A stretch of 64,000 nt of DNA from a virus. The notes beneath the pieces are model-generated. The model was not told the origin of the DNA. It saw only the letters and a program-made list of their open reading frames with translations, and searched no databases. Position 1 is the stretch's first letter; each line of letters starts with the position of its first letter. Shown in pieces: positions 3,525 to 13,626 of the stretch. The position numbers and the translations under genes are program-made. The stretch is from the IMG/VR virus record IMGVR_UViG_3300021142_000002, positions 156,367-220,366 of that record. The stretch is one strand, 5' to 3'.

Positions 3525-4247
3525 CTATTGTCTTAAGATGTCTTCAATAGATTCATTTCTTTCACTCTTATTAACTAAGGCTGATGTTAAACCTTCATTA
3601 AAATGAGCACCTAGTAACTTAGCAGTGGTATTACTACTTTGATAAGCTACGGATTTTAATGGTACAAAGATAGGTTTAATTTTGCTATGAGGATCATTAA
3701 GTCTTGGATCGTGTCTAAAGAATTTAGCCCTATCTTCTTTTTGTCTGCACATAGCCACAGTTAATAATTCTAGTAGTGCAGCATCAGCACCTAATTTAGC
3801 ATTACCATGACTTAATGCAGTTTCAAATAAAACTGCATGATCTTCCATAGTAATGTACCAAGGCACTTTACCTTTAGAAATAATCTCATTATAAATACGA
3901 TATACTAAGGTACCAATTCTAATGAGATTAAGATTCTTAATAATGGTATCGCCTGCAATAAAACCAAACTCTAAATATTTCTCACCATGGATATCCACTG
4001 TATTGGTAGTACTTGGTTTAATTTCCATTAAGGTACAAGCATTACTAGTTGCATAATACTTGTCATCAACCGTCATACCGAAGATACCTACAATTCTAAT
4101 AACATCATCAATGGTACATAGACTAGCACTTGTATAATGTTCAGGAATATATATCTTACAAGGATGAACAGCTACTAATGAATCACCTACTTCTTTACAA
4201 GCAGCATGAACTTTAGCAGCATCTCGAATTAAGTGATTAACATTCAT
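3525..4247 (-). CDS. Hypothetical protein (240 aa)
   Basis: Soluble protein, no family recognised. It follows 4251-5630 by three bases and is in the same operon as RNA polymerase beta. Alternating hydrophobic and charged stretches without membrane segments. May be a virion protein or a polymerase-associated protein; position is the only hint. Confidence 0.65.
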   Translation of the reverse strand: MNVNHLIRDAAKVHAACKEVGDSLVAVHPCKIYIPEHYTSASLCTIDDVIRIVGIFGMTVDDKYYATSNACTLMEIKPSTTNTVDIHGEKYLEFGFIAGDTIIKNLNLIRIGTLVYRIYNEIISKGKVPWYITMEDHAVLFETALSHGNAKLGADAALLELLTVAMCRQKEDRAKFFRHDPRLNDPHSKIKPIFVPLKSVAYQSSNTTAKLLGAHFNEGLTSALVNKSERNESIEDILRQ

Positions 4248-4250
4248 CGT

Positions 4251-5630
4251 TTATACCGACATACTTACAATCTGTGATTTTAACCATCTAGCAATTAATC
4301 TAATGCACGCAATGTATAAGGCATAATCTAGATCAGGCTCTTTCATTTCATGTAAGATATTATCAATTTCTAATAAAATATCTTTTACATCAGATCCTTC
4401 AGTTAATGTTCTAGAAACTACTTTAATAACATATTGTACTAGATATTTAGCACCATGATATTCATGCTCTAATGCAGCAGTTAATCTTAATTGCATGGCA
4501 GCTTTATCAACACCTTCCATACCCATAATTAGTGTAGCCATGTAATCTCTGGTTACACGTCTTACTAGAGTAATATCTTCCAGTGTTTCTTTAGCCTTTA
4601 ATTGATTAATTTTCATGGTATAGATATCTGAATACTTTTCTGGATTATTTCTTAAATCCAGATCTCTATCTATAGCTGATGTATTGCCATGGGTAGATAA
4701 GAAACCTAAAGCAGCTTCAGGACTACCGCCTTTGTTTTGAATCCATTCTCTGTAGTTTGGACCATAAACCATTAGGCAATTGCGAGCTAAGTAATCAGTA
4801 TCGTTAAAACTTACTTTAGCTAAGATTTCACCATTAGAAATAGATCTATCATAAGCTAGTGTATCTCTATAGATCTTACCGGCAATAGCAGCTCGCAGTT
4901 TAGCGACCAATGCTCTTAAAGCAGTATCTTCCATTAAAGCTGAACACTTATCAGTTTTTTCATTTTGTATTCCAGTTAATAATAGGAAATACAAAATAGA
5001 TCTAGGCAGGCTTAACTGCGCCGTATCAATAGCATCTGGAATCGTTCTAGCTTCAGAGATAATATCTTTAAGATACTCAGTCGCCTTAGCGTCCAGTAAG
5101 TTAGAGCCTGTTTTAATTAGATCTTCAATTTCAGCTGAGGTAAAATCTTCAGCTAATCTTTTTGATAATTCATAACATTCAGACGATACAAAAGGAATAG
5201 TATCTTTATAAGGATCTAATAACTGAGTAAATAATTCATCAGTTAAAATACTAGGCATTTCAATTAACTTAATATTGCCCAGTAACCCTACGCTAGCTAA
5301 AGCACTTTCTTTTCTAACCTCTTCAACTTCTTTAACAATTGCTCTGCAATGGGGGTTGACTACATTCTTTGCTGTATCAATAATGTTTCCCATCACAATA
5401 GCAATCTTTTTAACACAGGCGGTTTCATAACCTGAATGTGTACCAAATGTATTATTGCCTTCAATTGATAAATCCATAATCCTTTCATCAGTCCCTGTAT
5501 CATTAATACAAGTTAATGTTTTAAAGATAAGATCTAATGCTGAGGCTTGTACCGGCATCAGTGCTTTACCACTATAAGTAGCTGCACTGACAATATGACT
5601 TGTTTCATTTAAAACCTTTCTGGTAATCAT
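4251..5630 (-). CDS. Hypothetical protein (459 aa)
   Basis: Long, largely helical soluble protein without a motif I recognise. I looked for beta' C-terminal motifs (trigger loop, bridge helix) because of the neighbouring polymerase genes and found none. It lies between the 67-residue gene at 5644-5847 and the gene at 3525-4247 with spacers of 13 and 3 bases, so it is co-transcribed with RNA polymerase beta. Confidence 0.7.
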   Translation of the reverse strand: MITRKVLNETSHIVSAATYSGKALMPVQASALDLIFKTLTCINDTGTDERIMDLSIEGNNTFGTHSGYETACVKKIAIVMGNIIDTAKNVVNPHCRAIVKEVEEVRKESALASVGLLGNIKLIEMPSILTDELFTQLLDPYKDTIPFVSSECYELSKRLAEDFTSAEIEDLIKTGSNLLDAKATEYLKDIISEARTIPDAIDTAQLSLPRSILYFLLLTGIQNEKTDKCSALMEDTALRALVAKLRAAIAGKIYRDTLAYDRSISNGEILAKVSFNDTDYLARNCLMVYGPNYREWIQNKGGSPEAALGFLSTHGNTSAIDRDLDLRNNPEKYSDIYTMKINQLKAKETLEDITLVRRVTRDYMATLIMGMEGVDKAAMQLRLTAALEHEYHGAKYLVQYVIKVVSRTLTEGSDVKDILLEIDNILHEMKEPDLDYALYIACIRLIARWLKSQIVSMSV

Positions 5631-5643
5631 TAGTATACTCCTT

Positions 5644-5847
5644 TTAAACAGCTAGTTCAGATAATAAAGCAGCGGCTACTAATTCTTCAGTTTCACTTTC
5701 TGCTAAAGGAGATTTACCTATTTTATCACCAATCATTTCTTTTAAAATAGCAGTCCCTAATGAGACTGCACAAGCGATTGTTTTCTTAGTAATGATTTGT
5801 TTTTCTGGTAACTTTTCTTCTACTACTAAATTTAGATCATCCATCAT
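5644..5847 (-). CDS. Hypothetical small acidic protein (67 aa)
   Basis: Small protein starting MMDDLNLVVEEKLPEKQ with a hydrophobic central helix and a C-terminal ETEELVAAALLSELAV helix. It begins one base after the stop of RNA polymerase beta exon 2 and has a GAGGA ribosome site overlapping the end of that exon. Unknown function; possibly a small accessory subunit given the coupling. Confidence 0.6.
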   Translation of the reverse strand: MMDDLNLVVEEKLPEKQIITKKTIACAVSLGTAILKEMIGDKIGKSPLAESETEELVAAALLSELAV

Positions 5848-6057
5848 TTATCCTCTTTTATATTTTAAACCCATTTGTTTAGAAAGCTCTTTTAGTACGG
5901 TATTCATAACACCCATAATTTCTGGAGAAACTACGATACGTGCAGCAACGGCATAAAATCCAAATAAAGCATCGACTTTAATGCCATTTCTAGCAATAAT
6001 GGGTGAGGTAGAAACTCGGCTAATAGTAGATTTTAACTGATTAGCAAACACGACTTT
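5848..6057 (-). CDS. RNA polymerase beta subunit, exon 2 (spliced)
   Basis: Last 69 codons of the beta gene, joined to exon 1 (7699-11481) by removal of the group I intron 6058-7698. Taken alone it could be read as a 67-codon gene from a GTG at 6049-6051, but the frame continues upstream to AAA-GTC at the splice point. Joined, the sequence reads ...CGD-KVVFANQLKSTIS, which lines up with GDKMAGRHGNKGVIS of bacterial beta. Both active-centre lysines of that motif are kept (about K1262 and K1270 of the spliced protein), whereas the RHGN part is replaced by AN-QL. The following VDALFGFYAVAARIV...GVMNT matches the layout of VDIVLNPLGVPSRMNIGQ. The spliced protein would be 1330 residues; the remaining C-terminal part is encoded at 29708-30373. 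Confidence 0.8.
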   Translation of the reverse strand, partial: KVVFANQLKSTISRVSTSPIIARNGIKVDALFGFYAVAARIVVSPEIMGVMNTVLKELSKQMGLKYKRG

Positions 6058-7698
6058 CCTTTTTGTTCCATTAATTCGTTAGATTAATGCGGTGTGCAAA
6101 GACACCCGCCCTTACTTTCATAAGGGAGCAGATCATATCATCCACCTATTTGTAGGTGGTTTCCCATTTCTTCCCACTTGGGGTCTACAGGGTGGTAAGC
6201 CCTTGATCGTTGAACGTTCTCCATGTATTCTAATGAATATTTAGGAGCTTCGCTGCTGATTGCCCAATCTTTATTATTTTTAAACATTCATATTTCTTTT
6301 CAAAAATACAGTAGTTAATAAAGCTCTAAGGGATTTCCAGCAATTAAGGAAAAACGAATATAATATTACTATTATACCGGACTAATTATTTAATTAAACA
6401 ACTCTTCAATGATCCAGCCATTATATGGCATTTTATAATGTAATCTATTTTTAAGGGTCTTTTTATCTAAACCTAAATATTTACGTAATGTTGCCGAGCT
6501 ATTGAATTTTAAAATTTCATTATCTTTTATGTTAGTTATAATAAAATTTCTGGGAACAGAATGTTTAACTGTATAAAAGTTATCTAACCATTCTTTATCA
6601 CTTTTAGATCTAAAAATAAAATTACCAATAGCAGTTTGCCGTTCAGAATAAACAGCTTTACGTACCATTGAAATATCAGTATTTGTTATTTTAGCCAGAG
6701 TGGTTGCATGTTCTGCATGTATTATTTCACCAGTTTCAATATTTTTAGCTTCATATCCGTTTGTATTCTCAATTATTTGATTTCGTTTTTCTGGTGTAGT
6801 GTAATACCATTCTGTAGTGTCATTGATATCTTTAATTTCAAATCTTTTACAGAATAGTCTAGGTATTAAAATGCCATTAATTAATTTCTTAAATGGTCTG
6901 TTATGGAATTTTAATCCAATACTTTTAAACCCAGCAGTGTGAGAATGGTACTCAGTTATAGTATTATTTAAATAATCTCGTATAACACAGCGCTTATTAT
7001 CAGTTCTTAAATTGCTAATAAAGGCATGATTATTATTTTCTCTTGGCGTAACCCATTCCAAATTAATTATACGGTTATCTAATTTATTACCATTTTTATG
7101 ATTAACATAAATTTTGTTACTTATATCGCTATTATATATAAATGCTTTAGCCATCAGCAAATGTGTACATACGGGACGCCATCTATTTTTATCAGGATCC
7201 CTAATATTAACACATGGATATCCATAAGGATTTAGTCTTATACTCATTTCTAAATCTTTATTTTTATATAACGAAATAACTTTACCATTCTTATTTATAG
7301 CAAAATTAGTAAAACCAGGAATTATTCTAAACCCATTCTTATAAAGAATAGGGTTAGTAAAATACATTACCATACCACATCTAACCTTTAATACCCTGCT
7401 AGTTATTGGCATAAATTTTATTTTAACTAATTCATTAAGGGGTAACTTTACATCATAATGGCATAATAAACTAACCCATGTTTTATCCAATTGCACTATT
7501 TCACCAGAAATTTCTATATCAATAAATTGATCGTTTAAAACTATATCTTTTCCCTTAAATCTATAATTTCCATTAATATCAAATGAATGGTCTTCATTAA
7601 GATAAAATTTTTTATACATGTTATTTAACCTATAAATGATTGAATGTGTGTATAAATAATATATATCTTAAAGAAATTTGTGTTTATTAAAAGGAATA
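6058..7698 (-). ncRNA. Group I intron 1, in RNA polymerase beta
   Basis: A 1641-base intron carrying an HNH homing endonuclease gene (6390-7619) in its 5' half. The catalytic core lies at about 6100-6350. On the minus strand one can see the CAATTA-rich P4/P5 region (about 6335-6347), AATCAGCAGCGAAGCTCC (P6/J6-7 type), GTTCAACGATCAAG (P7 5' side) and GATGATATGATCT (P7/P3 3' side), the order of phage IA-type introns. The proposed splice follows group I rules (exon ends in U, intron ends in G): GGTGAT^ at 7699 and ^AAAGTC at 6057. Core blocks are shared nearly word for word with intron 2 (11656-12168). Exact ends are inferred from restoring the beta reading frame. Confidence 0.85.
6390..7619 (-). 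CDS. HNH homing endonuclease of intron 1
   Basis: A 409-residue intron-encoded endonuclease, expected to cut intronless alleles and promote intron homing. Central region (about residues 125-210) has NUMOD4-like FAINKNGKVISLYKN followed by an HNH core: VCTHLLMAKAF, then VNHKNGNKLDNRIINLEWVT and ENNNHAF. The C-terminal half has repeated NUMOD/IENR-type DNA-binding modules (ETGEIIHAEHATTLAKI; ILKFNSSATLRKYLGLDKKT). The ORF starts 79 bases inside the intron and ends about 45 bases before the core, so it sits in a peripheral loop. Its last module is similar to the fragment left in intron 2. Confidence 0.88.
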   Translation of the reverse strand: MYKKFYLNEDHSFDINGNYRFKGKDIVLNDQFIDIEISGEIVQLDKTWVSLLCHYDVKLPLNELVKIKFMPITSRVLKVRCGMVMYFTNPILYKNGFRIIPGFTNFAINKNGKVISLYKNKDLEMSIRLNPYGYPCVNIRDPDKNRWRPVCTHLLMAKAFIYNSDISNKIYVNHKNGNKLDNRIINLEWVTPRENNNHAFISNLRTDNKRCVIRDYLNNTITEYHSHTAGFKSIGLKFHNRPFKKLINGILIPRLFCKRFEIKDINDTTEWYYTTPEKRNQIIENTNGYEAKNIETGEIIHAEHATTLAKITNTDISMVRKAVYSERQTAIGNFIFRSKSDKEWLDNFYTVKHSVPRNFIITNIKDNEILKFNSSATLRKYLGLDKKTLKNRLHYKMPYNGWIIEELFN

Positions 7699-10600
7699 AT
7701 CACCGCAATTCATTGGCAGCTCACCATCTATATAGATTTTAATAGCCAATTGATTTTCTACCACTTTCTTACCTGCTATTCGTACCGTCTCATCTATTCG
7801 TCCAGTCTTAGCTTCATCTAATTGATATCGCTTTACACGCTTAGCTCTATTGGAGTCATAATACTCTGCAATCTTTTGCAAACTAAAATGCATATCATCT
7901 ATTTTTCCATAGTAAACCACTTCAATATCAGTTACTTTACCATAGACTTTAGCTTTCGGATTATTAGCGTTAATAGCTGTTAAAGCCTTAATAGCTGCGG
8001 CATCTTTAGCATCCACATTCTCGCCAATAGCCTGCTCTAAAGTACATAATATTGTTTCAGGGTCCACTACATCACCTATTTTTACTAGGTTATGAATGAT
8101 GGTATCAAAGTCTACTATTACCCCGTGCAGAGTCGTTGTAGGCGTTACTAATTTACTAGCCAGTTCACTAGTAATAACTGATCCATCTTCAGTAACATCC
8201 ATATTTTCTACTAAAGCTACTTTACAAATTAAGCTGCCTTTATAGACAACATTTCTAGGATTTATTTCTGATCTTTGAAAGAATCCAGAGTTAAAGACTA
8301 ATGCATCACCTTTTTTAAACTGATGTCCTTTCTTTAAATCACTGATTCTAGTATGAGGTATAGTAACACCCGATACAGTACCATGATAAATACCTAATTC
8401 ATAATTAACCAGTCTATCTTTACCATACTTAACAGTTAAAACATCTTTTTTATTATCTTCTACAATACCATCTTCTTCTGCAGTAACAACAAAGATATCA
8501 TCTGCTTTAGCACCAATGACTTCTTCATAACCTGTTCTATAATGACTAGGATGATATCCATTGCAGGCAACTGTATGACTATCCTGAATGCCTTTATAAT
8601 TTACGCGTTTACTATCATCGTGACTTAATGAAACACCAGCTAGGGTGGTACTACTTAATGCATTAGTGGCCCCATCTTTCTCATGATTAAATTCTCTAGT
8701 AACTCCTCTTAAATTGACAAAGTTAGGATTAGCTGTAAAGTATGCTCTAATACCTACCTTAGCACTATCTGGAGTAGACTCCGATATAACACCTAAATCC
8801 TTTTCATTATAAGCTCTAGTCTCCTTTACCATTGTTTCAGCAGATCTACCACCTGCGCCGCCATGAGTAAAAGATTCATGCTCCTTTAGATTGTGCAGTG
8901 GATTACTTTCTTCTACTAATGATACTGACTGATCTTGAATGATATCTAGCCAAACCGATTTAGGATTAATAGTCACACCCACATTACTCATACTACCACC
9001 TGCCCTGTGAGTACGCATAGCAGTAATCAATTGATGGTATAACAAGCCCGATAGTCTTTCATAACCTTTATACCTAACTGCATTTAAATCATGTACAAAG
9101 TCATCCACTAATAAGCTATTAGCTCTTAATAATAAATGATAAAAATCAGTAGGCTCTCCCATCTCCTTTAATAGATTAAGAGTAATGGGTTCCATCCACA
9201 TATCAAACATTAGTTTTAGTTCTCTTAAGTGATAATTAGTGACACCTAATCCACTCATTAAACTACTGTAAATATTAGGTCTATTAAAGTCACTTCCTTT
9301 ATATTTAGAGATATCATTTTTAATAGCCAGTAATCCACCGACTATTAATTTATCTGCAGGTTTAGTTACTGTAATAACGTAGACGATATCTTTAAACTTT
9401 AGTTTAACTTCATCTGGATGATAAGCTAATCTTACATTAGTTGCTGAGAGTGTAAAAGGTATTTGTAATTTCTTTAACATCTCATCTAAACCAAAGAGAT
9501 AAGAAAAAGCTAGGCCTAATGGAATACGTCTATTAAAGACTGACATTTCAGAATATTCAATAGGTCCATTACCTAATGATGGATCTATTAAATAAGGTAT
9601 AGTGCCTAATTCCTCAATTGAATCAGCTTTGGTGGATCTAATACCACTACCCCAGAATGTATAAACAGTCCCCTCATTATCCATTCCTAATAAACCTAAT
9701 CCGCCAATTAACTCCCCAACTACCACGCAGTCTTCATCCTTAATTTTTTCATATAAAGAATGATCGTATTCATGTAATTTCTTTTCTATAGCAAAGTCTA
9801 AATGATATTGGAATCTAATAATTCCATCTACTAAAAATCTTCCACAGTCAAAACTGGTAATTGCTTCACAAATAGCCGTATAAGCTCTAGGTAATTGCAG
9901 ATTCTTTATTTTATTAATACCATAGAGTAGATTACCAATAGTTCCATCATTTTTAGTAAATCTATTTATAATCTCTTTTAAAATCCATTTACTGTAGTTA
10001 CTTGCTACACTTTCATTTCTAGTAACAAATATCTTTCCATAATAACTAGTCAAAGAAACAGTATTAGATTTTACCTTAAAAATTGGAAGTTCTCCGCGCT
10101 GACTAGTTAAAGAATAGCGTATTCCACCAGCTACGAAAGTACCATCAGCATTAACTACTGGTATAGTAAAATGAATAGTACTCGCCTCCCCATTAATAGG
10201 TTGCAGTGATACACTGTAGGTATCAGATTTAGTAACTGCATTATTCTTTCTTTTTACTTTAATATCCTTTACTATTACCCCACCTTTGTGTAAATTTAAC
10301 ACTGTGGCTATAATATCTTTAGGCAATACTTCAGTAACGTATTTACTCGTAAATTCTTTCATGGTAGAGTGTAGCATACTCTCATCATGAATAGTAATAC
10401 TTTCATCTAATAATTTAGTATCAGTAATAGTTAAATCATTATCGGTAATTGCCATTTCCTCTAGTGTCTTGCCAGAGCCATGAGGGTCTAATATTGTCTT
10501 ATACTTTTGACTGAGTTTTAATAATCCTTTTTGTTCAGCTTCAGATAGAGCACCCATTTCTCCAGCTTCTTTAATCTTCCTTACAATGACTTCGTTAGAT

Positions 10601-11481
10601 ACTAAATCATTTTCCCCTAAGTCCTTATCATTAATATCTACAATGTCTGGATTGTTAGGTGTTCTTAAAGCTACTATACCATCCAGAAAGTGATATAAGC
10701 TATTCATGCAGACTTCAGGATCTTCATGTGACCAATCTAATAGATCCTTTAATCTAATGATAATAGTATTATTTAACTCTACAAAGACTAGATTAACATG
10801 TTCGATCGCTTCATCAGATACTTTAGTAATAACTGATTCAATACTAGGGTTAATGATTCTCCATAATTCTAATAAGTCAAAACTCTCATTAGTGTGAAAA
10901 TCTGCTAGTCCATTACTCGTAAAGTTCTTAGTATATTTACTTAAGTCAGATCGAGTAGGCAATATCTCTGGCAGTAGATATCTAATAAAGTGCTCTCTCC
11001 TACCACCAATCTGATTAATCATATCCCACATAGTCAGTCGAATGTTATACCATTCTTGATAGACGACTAAGGTATTATTAGTATACTTATTTAATCTAGG
11101 CAATAGAGCATAGTTAATAACAATAGGGGCACTATTGTTACTTAATGACCTATCTAGATTAGTCAATGGTTTAATATTTAGATGTGTTTTTTGATATCGT
11201 CTGATAACATTATTAATAGGTATATTGGTGCTACTTACATTGCCAATACCTACCTTTAAATGTAGCATGTGATAAATATAGATTGGGCTACTATTTCCAT
11301 TTCTAATTAAACAATAGGAGTTGTCTATCCCTACTGTTTGATCAGTTTCCCCAATATAGTGAATAACACTATTACTGGGTAGAAAAAACTGACTCGATGG
11401 ATTATGTTTACCACCATTGACTATCTTACCAATGGGATAAGTCAAAAACTTTTTATCCCATTCTTTTATTGGTAAATACAT
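7699..11481 (-). CDS. RNA polymerase beta subunit, exon 1
   Basis: First 1261 codons of a phage multisubunit RNA polymerase beta subunit. Recognisable segments are the lobe/fork region around residues 440-490 (VVNADGTFVAGGIRYSL, then RGELPIFKVKS and LTSYYGKIFV), and a C-terminal part with GKDRLVNYELGIYHG, KKGDALVFNSGFF and ELPMNCGD, where bacterial beta has YNYEDA..., KxGDxL and GDK. Without splicing the frame runs only four codons (YSFL-type end at 7687) into the intron. The gene starts 9 bases after the stop of beta' exon 2, so beta'-N and beta are one operon. The unspliced 1264-codon frame would lack the catalytic lysines, so splicing should be needed for function. Whether the enzyme is the virion or the non-virion type cannot be told. 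Confidence 0.85.
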
Positions 11482-11490
11482 TACTTACTC

Positions 11491-11655
11491 CTATTCATAT
11501 ATTTTAGTAAAGCTATTGAGCACGAGTGGACTAACTTTATCAATAACTCCGTATAATAATCCGCCACTAGGATTCATAAATGATTTTTTATTATTCATAA
11601 ACTTTTTAGCTTCCTCTACCGCTTCTTTTGAGATTACAAAATTTAGAGAGACTTT
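11491..11655 (-). CDS. RNA polymerase beta' N-terminal part, exon 2
   Basis: 54 codons plus stop, too short to be found as a separate gene, in frame after removal of intron 2. The joined sequence reads QADFDGD-KVSLNFVISKEA, continuing into EEAKKFM and NPSGGLLYG. This matches NADFDGDQMAVHVPLTLEA, then EA..LM and L.P..G.P, of bacterial beta'. The coding frame and motif order after the splice strongly support it. The protein ends soon after (FTKIYE), so the rest of beta' (bridge helix, trigger loop) must be encoded elsewhere, as in phages with split beta'. Confidence 0.82.
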   Translation of the reverse strand, partial: KVSLNFVISKEAVEEAKKFMNNKKSFMNPSGGLLYGVIDKVSPLVLNSFTKIYE

Positions 11656-12168
11656 CGATTTGTTCAGATGAAGTCGTTAATTTCACCTCGCAGCATTACC
11701 TGCAGCTATAACTCTCGTTATAGACCAGACTATATCTTCTACCTATTAATATATTCATTAATATACCAATAGGCAGCTTCCCATTTCTTCCCACTTGGGC
11801 TTTACACCGTGGTTAGCGGTTAGTCGTTGAACGTTCTCCATGTATTCTATAGAATATTTAGGAGCTTCGCTGCTGATTTTCTCTACCTAATAGTTTTCAA
11901 ACATTGGTATTACTTTTCAATAATACAGTAGTCTATTAGTCTAACAAGATGTTCCAGCAATTAAAGAAGAATCTATCCCAGTATTACTACTGAGTAGGAC
12001 ACTGATACTTAAACTATTTTATACTTAAAATGCCAATCTGAATTAATGGGTATTCCATTTAGATTCCTAATAATAGCTTTTCGGTTTACTCGAGTAACAC
12101 CTTCAGCTATTTATAAGTATTACGATAAAAAGTATTCAGAAAAATAAGTACAACTAGAATAAGCTAGA
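11656..12168 (-). ncRNA. Group I intron 2, in RNA polymerase beta'
   Basis: A 513-base intron without a full endonuclease gene. It shares with intron 1 the CCAGCAATTAA block (about 11952-11962), the AATCAGCAGCGAAGCTCC block (about 11864-11881), GAGAACGTTCAACGA, and CCCAAGTGGGAAGAAATGGG. Its P7/P3 3' side GAAGATATAGTCTGG is the textbook phage form. Proposed splice sites are GGTGAT^ (12169) and ^AAAGTC (11655), identical to those of intron 1. Removing it restores the DFDGD-K reading frame. The gene-free stretch 11656-12168 is fully accounted for by the intron. Confidence 0.87.
12009..12110 (-). pseudogene. Remnant of intron-encoded homing endonuclease
   Basis: An open stretch of 33 codons with no start codon, IAEGVTRVNRKAIIRNLNGI followed by PINSDWHFKYKIV and stop. 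It resembles the last helix-turn-helix module of the HNH endonuclease in intron 1 (GLDKKTLKNRLHYKMPYNGW...). It ends about as far before the intron core as the complete gene does in intron 1. This suggests that intron 2 lost most of its endonuclease gene by internal deletion. Confidence 0.6.
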
Positions 12169-13626
12169 ATCACCATCGAAATCTGCTTGTAATCCTTCGG
12201 GTTTAGAACTGTGTACCGATACTGAATCTATAAAAGGTTGTCCTTTAATAGGCATGTTTATAGCCTTAGATTCATTTTCTACAGGACACCAATTATCATC
12301 CAATCTTTGCAGAATTTCTGTTTTTACTGTTGTTTGCAGGTAAACCATACTGCAGTAAATACTGCCTGTACCTACAATGGGATATCTTGTTATATAGGTA
12401 GCTACTTCTTTACTTTGTAGATAAACGGAAATATAAAACATTTCAGTCCAAGTAATAGGTGCTACATTCTTTCTATCTAAACGTTTAGGTAAATCAGTAA
12501 TGTCATAAAAGACCCTAAAGTATTTATCATCCCTATAAAGCAATGCTGCATAATGACCATCTATTATAATAGGCTTATGCCTTGCATCTAATTTAGCATA
12601 ACCAGTTAATAGTTTTTCAATACCTTTTTCACTGCCCCAATTATCTTTAACAAAAGTAGAAGGTGTAATCATTCTTTCTTCTAATGTCTTGCTATCGACT
12701 ACCCAGATATCATTAGGTAAGTTATTGACTATTCTATTCATTGGACCTGCTTTAATTCCATAGATAGATAGCTCAGTAGTACCCTTTAAATACTGGTGTA
12801 AACCACAGGTTGTATCATTAACAGTAACTGCATCTATATCGCCTAATTTCTTAGGAGCAGGATCAATTGCAGTGATTACATTTCGTGTTCCGCCATGAAT
12901 ACTGCGGCTTGCCCATTTGGATAAGAAGAATCCTCTTTTACCCTCAAGGATAGATTCTATGTAATCATAGATGTTATTAAATCCTAATTGGAGAGACCAT
13001 CTAACAGTATCTAAGATGGGATCATTTTTAGCGGTAGAGAAAGTAGAAATAGTATTAGCAGATCGCATGACTTTTCTATAAAGCGCGTTAATGTCATCTT
13101 CAACAGTTCTTTTATTTTCATCTATTTCAATGTCTCTAAGACCTGCTGGAATAACGACTAAATACCGATACATACATTTTTCATGAGACTTATCTAGAAA
13201 CTTAATTCTTAAATCTCTAATCGGTGAATTATTTTCAGCATGTAAGATATCATGAAAGTGTTCCATAAAGAAGGCATAACCTGTTCTGCCATCTATGATA
13301 TTAGATTTTACAAAGTCTTTTAGATTATTATCCCAAGTAGCATAAGCTGCTCCAGACATAATAAGTTTATATAAACCTTTTAATCTAGTGAGTTCTAAAA
13401 AGACTTTAGGATGCATGACTTCAGTACGCATGTCTATATAAGACAGTCTTCTTTGTCTAGTAGGTGATCCAAGATCACCAAAGATAATAGATGAATATAA
13501 ACCTTGTGGATTAAATGATCCATCAATGGTATAAATATCCATTGACTGAGTAGGCAGTAAGCCTGCTAATCGACTCTTATCAGGAGAGAGTAGATATAAA
13601 TTAAATGGTAATCGCTTGAGTGCCAT
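12169..13626 (-). CDS. RNA polymerase beta' N-terminal part, exon 1
   Basis: First 486 codons of the beta' N-terminal subunit of the phage RNA polymerase, the part that carries the catalytic Mg-binding loop. Visible landmarks are GLYSSIIFGDLGSPTRQ near residue 40 (bacterial GLF..RIFGP), LEGKRGFFLSKWASRSIHG near 230 (bacterial [21 protein letters not shown]), and ADFDGD at 481-486 with the three catalytic aspartates. Spliced to exon 2 (11491-11655) it gives a 540-residue protein. The zinc-binding cysteines usual at the bacterial beta' N-terminus are not apparent. The start at 13626 faces the divergent tape-measure gene across 41 bases, so the promoters for both directions should be in or near 13627-13667. 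Confidence 0.88.

Follow-up and report, generated by a model that had tools for sequence, protein, structure and literature searches.

Group I introns are already known from the polymerase genes of jumbo phages. Introns in the genes of these phages have been described in general, and that of PhiPA3 gp210 in detail (PMC11620839, PMC12908238, PMC13282480); gp210 is the virion RNA polymerase (RNAP) beta gene of a nucleus-forming phage and holds a group I intron with an HNH homing endonuclease (Birkholz 2024, PMC11620839). This HNH enzyme nicks the empty site of phiKZ, and one jumbo phage polymerase-gene intron was found to serve as a weapon of one phage against another in co-infection (PMC11620839). 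Split RNAP genes have been proposed to have arisen from introns (PMC7598289), and orf142 of Staphylococcus phage Twort contains two related tandem group I introns around a 23-nucleotide (nt) exon, with exon skipping (PMC10136302). Here we describe the window, a stretch of 64,000 nt at the right end (156367-220366) of the 220,366-base virus record IMGVR_UViG_3300021142_000002, in which two adjoining genes, identified by alignment as those of the virion RNAP beta' and beta subunits of a phiKZ-like jumbo phage (the window phage), are each interrupted by a group I intron at the same 12-base target. Probably the two introns belong to one interbreeding pool within phiKZ-like RNAP genes, in which the beta' intron lost its endonuclease and the beta intron came later as a chimera, and not as a simple copy from beta' to beta. 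What is new is the concentrated map of intron targets in one active site and a very short exon.

Results

Feature coordinates (5848-13626) are window positions with the genes on the minus strand (Table 1). The beta' exon 1 ends in ...TTCGATGGTGAT (last base 12169) and its exon 2 starts with AAAGTCTCT at 11655; exon 1 of beta ends in ...AATTGCGGTGAT (longer form TTGCGGTGAT, last base 7699) and its exon 2 starts with AAAGTCGTG at 6057. The exon ends GGTGAT and exon starts AAAGTC described in the sequence-only reading are thus present at all four places, and the insertion site in both genes is GGTGAT^AAAGTC. In both introns the last exon base is T (U) and the last intron base is G, as expected of group I splicing and as had been claimed. 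The joined beta' frame is open over 540 amino acids (aa) and reads LQADFDGD-KVSLNF, and the joined beta frame is open over 1330 aa and reads MNCGD-KVVFANQLKSTIS. Spliced beta aligns across its junction with solved bacterial and plastid beta (RpoB) through GDKVAGRHGNKG, which holds the two catalytic lysines, and spliced beta' does so with plastid and bacterial beta' (RpoC1) through NADFDGDQMAVH. The earlier proposal that the joins restore polymerase motifs is therefore borne out by the open frames and by agreement with uninterrupted relatives and with bacterial and plastid polymerase structures; when uninterrupted relatives were checked for differences from the predicted joins, they agreed with both. 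The beta gene (gp178 orthologue) adjoins beta' (gp180 orthologue), the same neighbourhood as in phiKZ. An identical second copy of the intron and gene arrangement is found in contig IMGVR_UViG_3300021127_000026 (L009), and a megablast search against GenBank phages gave no near relative of the window phage.

Jumbo phage RNAP genes are often split (PMC7598289), which would fit genes that are truly broken and subunits that act as fragments without any splicing, but here the breaks lie inside catalytic motifs, the intron cores are intact, the frames are restored exactly, and intron positions vary between relatives while the joined protein is conserved, making this explanation extremely unlikely.

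Table 1. Features of the interrupted virion RNAP genes, in window positions
Feature	Positions	Strand	Basis
Virion RNAP beta' N-terminal gene, exon 1, 486 aa, ends ADFDGD	12169..13626	-	Open reading frame (ORF); orthologous by tblastn to phiKZ gp180 and to 295 phage records
beta' exon 2, 54 aa, starts KVSLN	11491..11655	-	Joined reading frame; agreement with exon 2 in relatives
Virion RNAP beta gene, exon 1, 1261 aa, ends CGD	7699..11481	-	ORF; phiKZ gp178 orthologue
beta exon 2, starts KVVFANQLK, holds both catalytic lysines	5848..6057	-	ORF, joined frame, RpoB alignment
beta' group I intron, 513 nt, after DGD and before K, no intact ORF	11656..12168	-	RF00028, 77 bits on 11706-12020; junction confirmed by relatives
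Homing endonuclease ORF remnant in beta' intron, IAEGVTRVNRKAIIRNLNGIPINSDWHFKYKIV	12009..12110	-	Place and sequence like C-terminus of L010 beta'-intron HNH
Guide sequence GUCC of beta' intron, pairs with ...GAU exon, U.G at splice site	11997..12000	-	Position and exon covariation; three consecutive pairs only
beta group I intron, 1641 nt, after GD and before first catalytic lysine	6058..7698	-	RF00028, 63.3 bits on 6109-6402; uninterrupted in relatives
HNH endonuclease ORF, 409 aa, 5' part of beta intron	6390..7619	-	Pfam HNH_3, NUMOD1
Guide sequence GUCC of beta intron	6379..6382	-	Position and exon covariation; three consecutive pairs only
beta intron segment, 98% over 98 nt to same-genome non-virion beta' AD^Y intron	6248..6345	-	
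beta intron segment nearest to window beta' intron, 83% over 84 nt	6154..6237	-	
beta intron tail, P9 region to 3' splice site, GGGTGTCTTTGCACACC hairpin, PhiPA3/phiKp_32 non-virion beta type (74-75%)	6058..6139	-	

Both elements, proposed earlier to be group I introns, match the Rfam group I model RF00028 over its full length, conserved core included, with scores above its curated cut-off of 50 bits. The beta' intron was found in a scan of the whole 64 kilobases (kb); the beta intron was missed in that scan and surfaced only when a short piece (6040-6420) was scanned alone (E 6e-16). Two further Rfam matches, to IsrM at 2397-2655, far under its cut-off, and to CDKN2B-AS inside the beta intron, were taken as chance.

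The ORF of the beta intron is an HNH enzyme, as had been noted, with a match to HNH_3 (PF13392; E 5e-8, 32.9 bits, cut-off 24.8) and one to NUMOD1 at 21.8 bits (E 2e-4), against a cut-off of 22.8. No other HNH_3 match was found in the 220-kb record, so that the four other introns of this genome (see below) are without an HNH_3 endonuclease of their own, and an IMG/VR search with this HNH returned the same phage only. In a relative contig (L010), 65% identical in beta', the beta' intron carries an intact 466-aa HNH ORF; at the corresponding position (12110-12009) the beta' intron of the window phage retains the final 33 codons of such an ORF. Residues 1-95 of the beta-intron HNH protein have no Pfam match; this N-terminal part, possibly for DNA binding, is common to the HNH proteins of the L010 beta', phiKp_32 non-virion beta and PhiPA3 DnaB introns.

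A guide sequence lies just upstream of the core, and by eye its triplet fits the exon triplet in 18 of 19 jumbo phage introns (exon and guide pairs GAU-GUC, AAU-GUU, GGU-GCC or GCU, and GCU-GGC), with six-base pairing in five cases (phiLBG22, Kodama, pir03, the Yong non-virion intron and the second PS1 intron). Since the guide GUC fits any ...GAU exon, and several introns have no ORF, an excised intron might have reverse spliced into another mRNA after a GAU, which would make a DNA endonuclease unnecessary. This would require a reverse transcription step (no reverse transcriptase was seen, and none was searched for) and leaves aside that the HNH is intact in the beta intron and in relatives, and we consider it very unlikely.

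The identical target stretch, GGTGATAAAGTC, was confirmed to be exactly 12 bases long, the next base differing on either side. It is shared because both proteins read Gly-Asp-Lys-Val at the insertion site, and from the codon usage of the window phage a match of all four codons between two such strings is expected in about 6% of cases, so the shared 12-mer is by itself weak evidence, although it may have helped insertion. In L010 one stretch, the 14-mer ATGGAGATAAAGTA, is common to its beta and beta' genes, with other codons than in the window phage; this self-match in both genes, in a comparison of two genomes, is suggestive of some coupling. L010 beta is uninterrupted at GGAGATAAAGTA and L010 beta' has an intron at the same codon as the window phage, GATGGAGAT^AAAGTATCA. 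The beta GDK was uninterrupted in all seven relatives checked (L010 and six further phages), and the GD^K region was in one piece in 60 of 60 sampled matches (a sample spread over 250 phage records encoding that part). The beta' site is thus shared, and the beta site so far private to the window phage.

The pre-cut Gly-Asp lies in the barrel domains of both subunits, and E. coli has GDKMA in beta and GDQMA in beta' where the window phage has GDKV in both. This Gly-Asp string may be an ancient equivalence of the two barrel domains, but a profile comparison gave no support: it aligned only GD, without significance, so that GDK of beta and GD-x of beta' as equivalent positions of the two homologous domains are an idea only.

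The sequence-only reading had noted that the two intron cores share long blocks. The beta and beta' introns do share blocks, but the sharing is not special to this pair, as the blocks are common to all five introns of the genome. The beta' intron is 70% identical to the L010 beta' intron over 452 aligned positions, and one of its top public matches is the intron beside phiKZ gp180 (70.7% over about 300). Segment-wise comparison shows the beta intron to be a mosaic. Its core begins with a segment that shares 94% identity over 108 nt (98% over 98 nt) with the genome's own non-virion AD^Y intron, and for the next 84 nt its nearest relative is the beta' intron of the window phage (83%), the only segment in which these two introns are mutually nearest. 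The tail of the beta intron (6139 to the splice site) has its closest counterparts in PhiPA3 and phiKp_32, whose non-virion beta introns match it at 74-75%, against 48-60% for all others compared (54% for the beta' intron and 48% for that of phiKZ gp71-73). It also has in common with these two introns a GGGTGTC...CACACC hairpin, the tail type of PhiPA3 and phiKp_32 within the phiKZ gp71-73/PhiPA3 gp065 class. A BLAST match to the beta intron was also obtained for the PhiPA3 intron (68% over 227 nt, E 3e-12). The introns with this tail in PhiPA3 and phiKp_32 directly precede the second catalytic lysine of non-virion beta (HGG^K in PhiPA3, GA^K in phiKp_32), whereas the beta intron of the window phage precedes the first, in virion beta. 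Its HNH is 32.7% identical to the HNH in the intron of the PhiPA3 DnaB-like helicase gene and 31% over 267 aa to the L010 beta' HNH, and by its N-terminal part it groups with the phiKp_32 enzyme. The PhiPA3 DnaB-like helicase gene (116.5-118.3 kb; L041 ~3940-5760) contains a group I intron with a long HNH ORF, unannotated except for a short downstream piece, which has a two-part build like the beta-intron HNH.

The earlier claim that one intron spread from one gene to the other is hence not supported as it was stated. Ectopic homing, in which the enzyme of one intron (that of beta' or, conversely, that of beta) cleaved the matching 12-mer in the other gene and repair carried the intron over, with later recombination with other introns, could draw on the identical 12-base target, on the relatedness of the introns (the 83% block), on the former presence in the beta' lineage of an HNH with the two-part build of the beta-intron enzyme (31% over 267 aa) and on L010, where beta' is occupied, beta is empty and both hold the same 14-mer; this is the starting state for such an event, and the shared sequence may therefore play a role. 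Since the beta intron is a mosaic, simple beta'-to-beta homing is an insufficient explanation: the tail at the 3' splice site is far closer to non-virion beta introns of other phages than to the beta' intron, the HNH is equally close to the PhiPA3 DnaB-intron enzyme, and the codon match arises by chance at the rate given above. We therefore regard ectopic homing as unlikely, though deserving of more weight than reverse splicing.

A search of the record turned up a total of five related introns, each of them in an RNA polymerase gene. The other three lie in one gene (106657-107867), the non-virion beta' subunit orthologous to phiKZ gp55, at QRN^PSLGR and NAD^YDG^DEM; the non-virion beta gene (92705-94729) is uninterrupted, and no close relatives of the non-virion beta' gene turned up in IMG/VR. 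Between its last two introns lies an exon of 9 nt, TATGATGGT (L005 2960-2968). This is shorter than the 23-nt Twort and 34-nt Coxiella exons cited as short cases (PMC10136302), though longer than the mitochondrial exons of one to three bases (PMC8971849). Coupling of polymerase formation to splicing, as suggested earlier for two events, is a fair expectation, but five events rather than two would be required, two for the virion enzyme and three for non-virion beta'. If the 9-nt exon were skipped, the frame would be kept (NAD-DEM) but the non-virion beta' would lack the metal-binding aspartate of YDG. That splicing gates polymerase activity, the NAD^YDG^DEM loop being assembled from three RNA pieces and the amount of active enzyme being set by how often the 9-nt exon is included rather than skipped, is an improbable and speculative idea.

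Among jumbo phages the seven-residue, metal-binding beta' loop N-A-D-F-D-G-D is cut at six codon boundaries, always after T. The cut is at N^A in non-virion beta' of phiKZ and KpGz_1 (G^A in AerS_266); at A/G^D in SaP7; at D^F in virion beta' of phiKZ, LucasX and Yong and non-virion beta' of PS1 and the window phage; at FD^G in virion beta' of pir03 and non-virion beta' of Yong; at DG^D in non-virion beta' of Kodama, Miami, Aphrodite1, PS1, AerS_266 and the window phage; and at DGD^x in virion beta' of the window phage and L010 and non-virion beta' of phiLBG22 and fnug. An Rfam group I match was found at every loop locus except those of pir03 and L010, mostly above the cut-off with a few below it (40-44 bits, E <1e-6). 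In a spread sample, 23 of 60 record matches to non-virion beta' stopped at the loop or the RN^P site (11 of the stopped matches were fetched and all 11 were intron-bearing) and 9 of 60 matches to virion beta' stopped at the loop; the sampled records are redundant, and so these counts give only rough rates. Two Aeromonas phages have two group I introns in the loop, PS1 (L032 ~4764-6398) with a 9-nt exon, TTCGACGGT, and AerS_266 (L048 4757-5463) with a 15-nt exon, GCAGACTTTGACGGT; the loop pieces of both are annotated as separate hypothetical proteins. In the non-virion beta' gene of Pseudomonas phage fnug (L043 4627-7522) introns lie at HRN^PTLQR and ADFDGD^Q, the former at the same motif boundary as the QRN^PSLGR intron of the window phage. 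Both catalytic lysine codons of beta also serve as intron sites, so that, with the six loop boundaries, mobile introns have settled time and again in the active site of a single enzyme. A literature search, which left subscription papers outside, turned up no paper with a map of introns in the aspartate loop of beta' or a description of the 9-nt exon.

Group I introns favour conserved active-site codons. Two unrelated insertions at such codons, with the 12-mer a coincidence of protein sequence and codon usage, would agree with this preference, with beta' loops cut at six boundaries in different phages and with the roughly 6% chance of identical codons; the blocks shared within the genome are left unexplained, although later recombination could account for them. 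Independent insertion is in our view the strongest of the alternatives, but still rather unlikely.

Discussion

The reading that we prefer, of two introns from one interbreeding pool, can be told as follows. Each intron would fold, cut after GAU with guanosine and join the exons, and this self-splicing would restore ADFDGD-K in beta' and GD-K in beta. The beta' intron would have lost its endonuclease and would represent a lineage found repeatedly at the aspartate loop of beta' in related phages. The beta intron would be a later chimeric arrival, with the record's only HNH_3 endonuclease, at a site that is empty in all relatives checked; its tail would derive from introns of non-virion beta that precede the other of the two catalytic lysines, and its core would have been exchanged with introns of the same genome. 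By the model of PhiPA3 gp210, which concerns another beta site (PMC11620839), the HNH would nick or cut the intronless beta gene of a co-infecting relative and repair would copy the intron. The cut codons encode metal-binding aspartates and lysines, so that imprecise loss would kill the enzyme and the introns would be kept in place.

Several points weigh against this account. Direct exchange between the beta and beta' introns, as judged from the alignments, is real for the middle segment; mosaicism blurs any tree and the intron sample is small; and we infer the direction and order of events. The guide and exon pairing in both introns of the window is of three consecutive pairs only, and for these two it is thus supporting but not decisive.

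A chimeric intron at an otherwise empty site lets the change of an intron's target be asked about directly. The introns also call for caution, as the polymerase genes of jumbo phages are often annotated as fragments.

The window introns may be compared with four described cases. In phiKZ gp71-73 and PhiPA3 gp065, too, a jumbo phage beta gene is interrupted by a group I intron at the codon of a catalytic lysine, and PhiPA3 gp065 and phiKp_32 share the P9 tail with the beta intron described here (74-75%), but the phiKZ and PhiPA3 introns precede the second lysine (HGG^K, E. coli K1073) and that of window beta the first (GD^K, K1065). For phiKZ, whose published lysine positions are K386 and K394 (PMC8287921), a splice after HGGN, the annotated gp71 end (L008 6455-7708), was rejected because it has no guide match, and the lysine spacing places the splice after HGG. 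PhiPA3 gp210 resembles the window beta gene in that an HNH-bearing group I intron lies in virion beta, but its insertion is at a D674-D675-type site (E. coli numbering), which is uninterrupted in the window phage, and not at GD^K. In phiKZ gp180 (ORF 179) and gp55 (ORF 56) group I introns likewise interrupt the aspartate loop of virion and non-virion beta', but they cut AD^F and N^A, not DGD^K, and carry ORFs where the window beta' intron has only a stump. Lastly, the paired related introns around a very short exon in Twort orf142 recall the non-virion beta' gene of the window phage, in which the exon, with splicing predicted, is only 9 nt long and encodes part of the catalytic loop.

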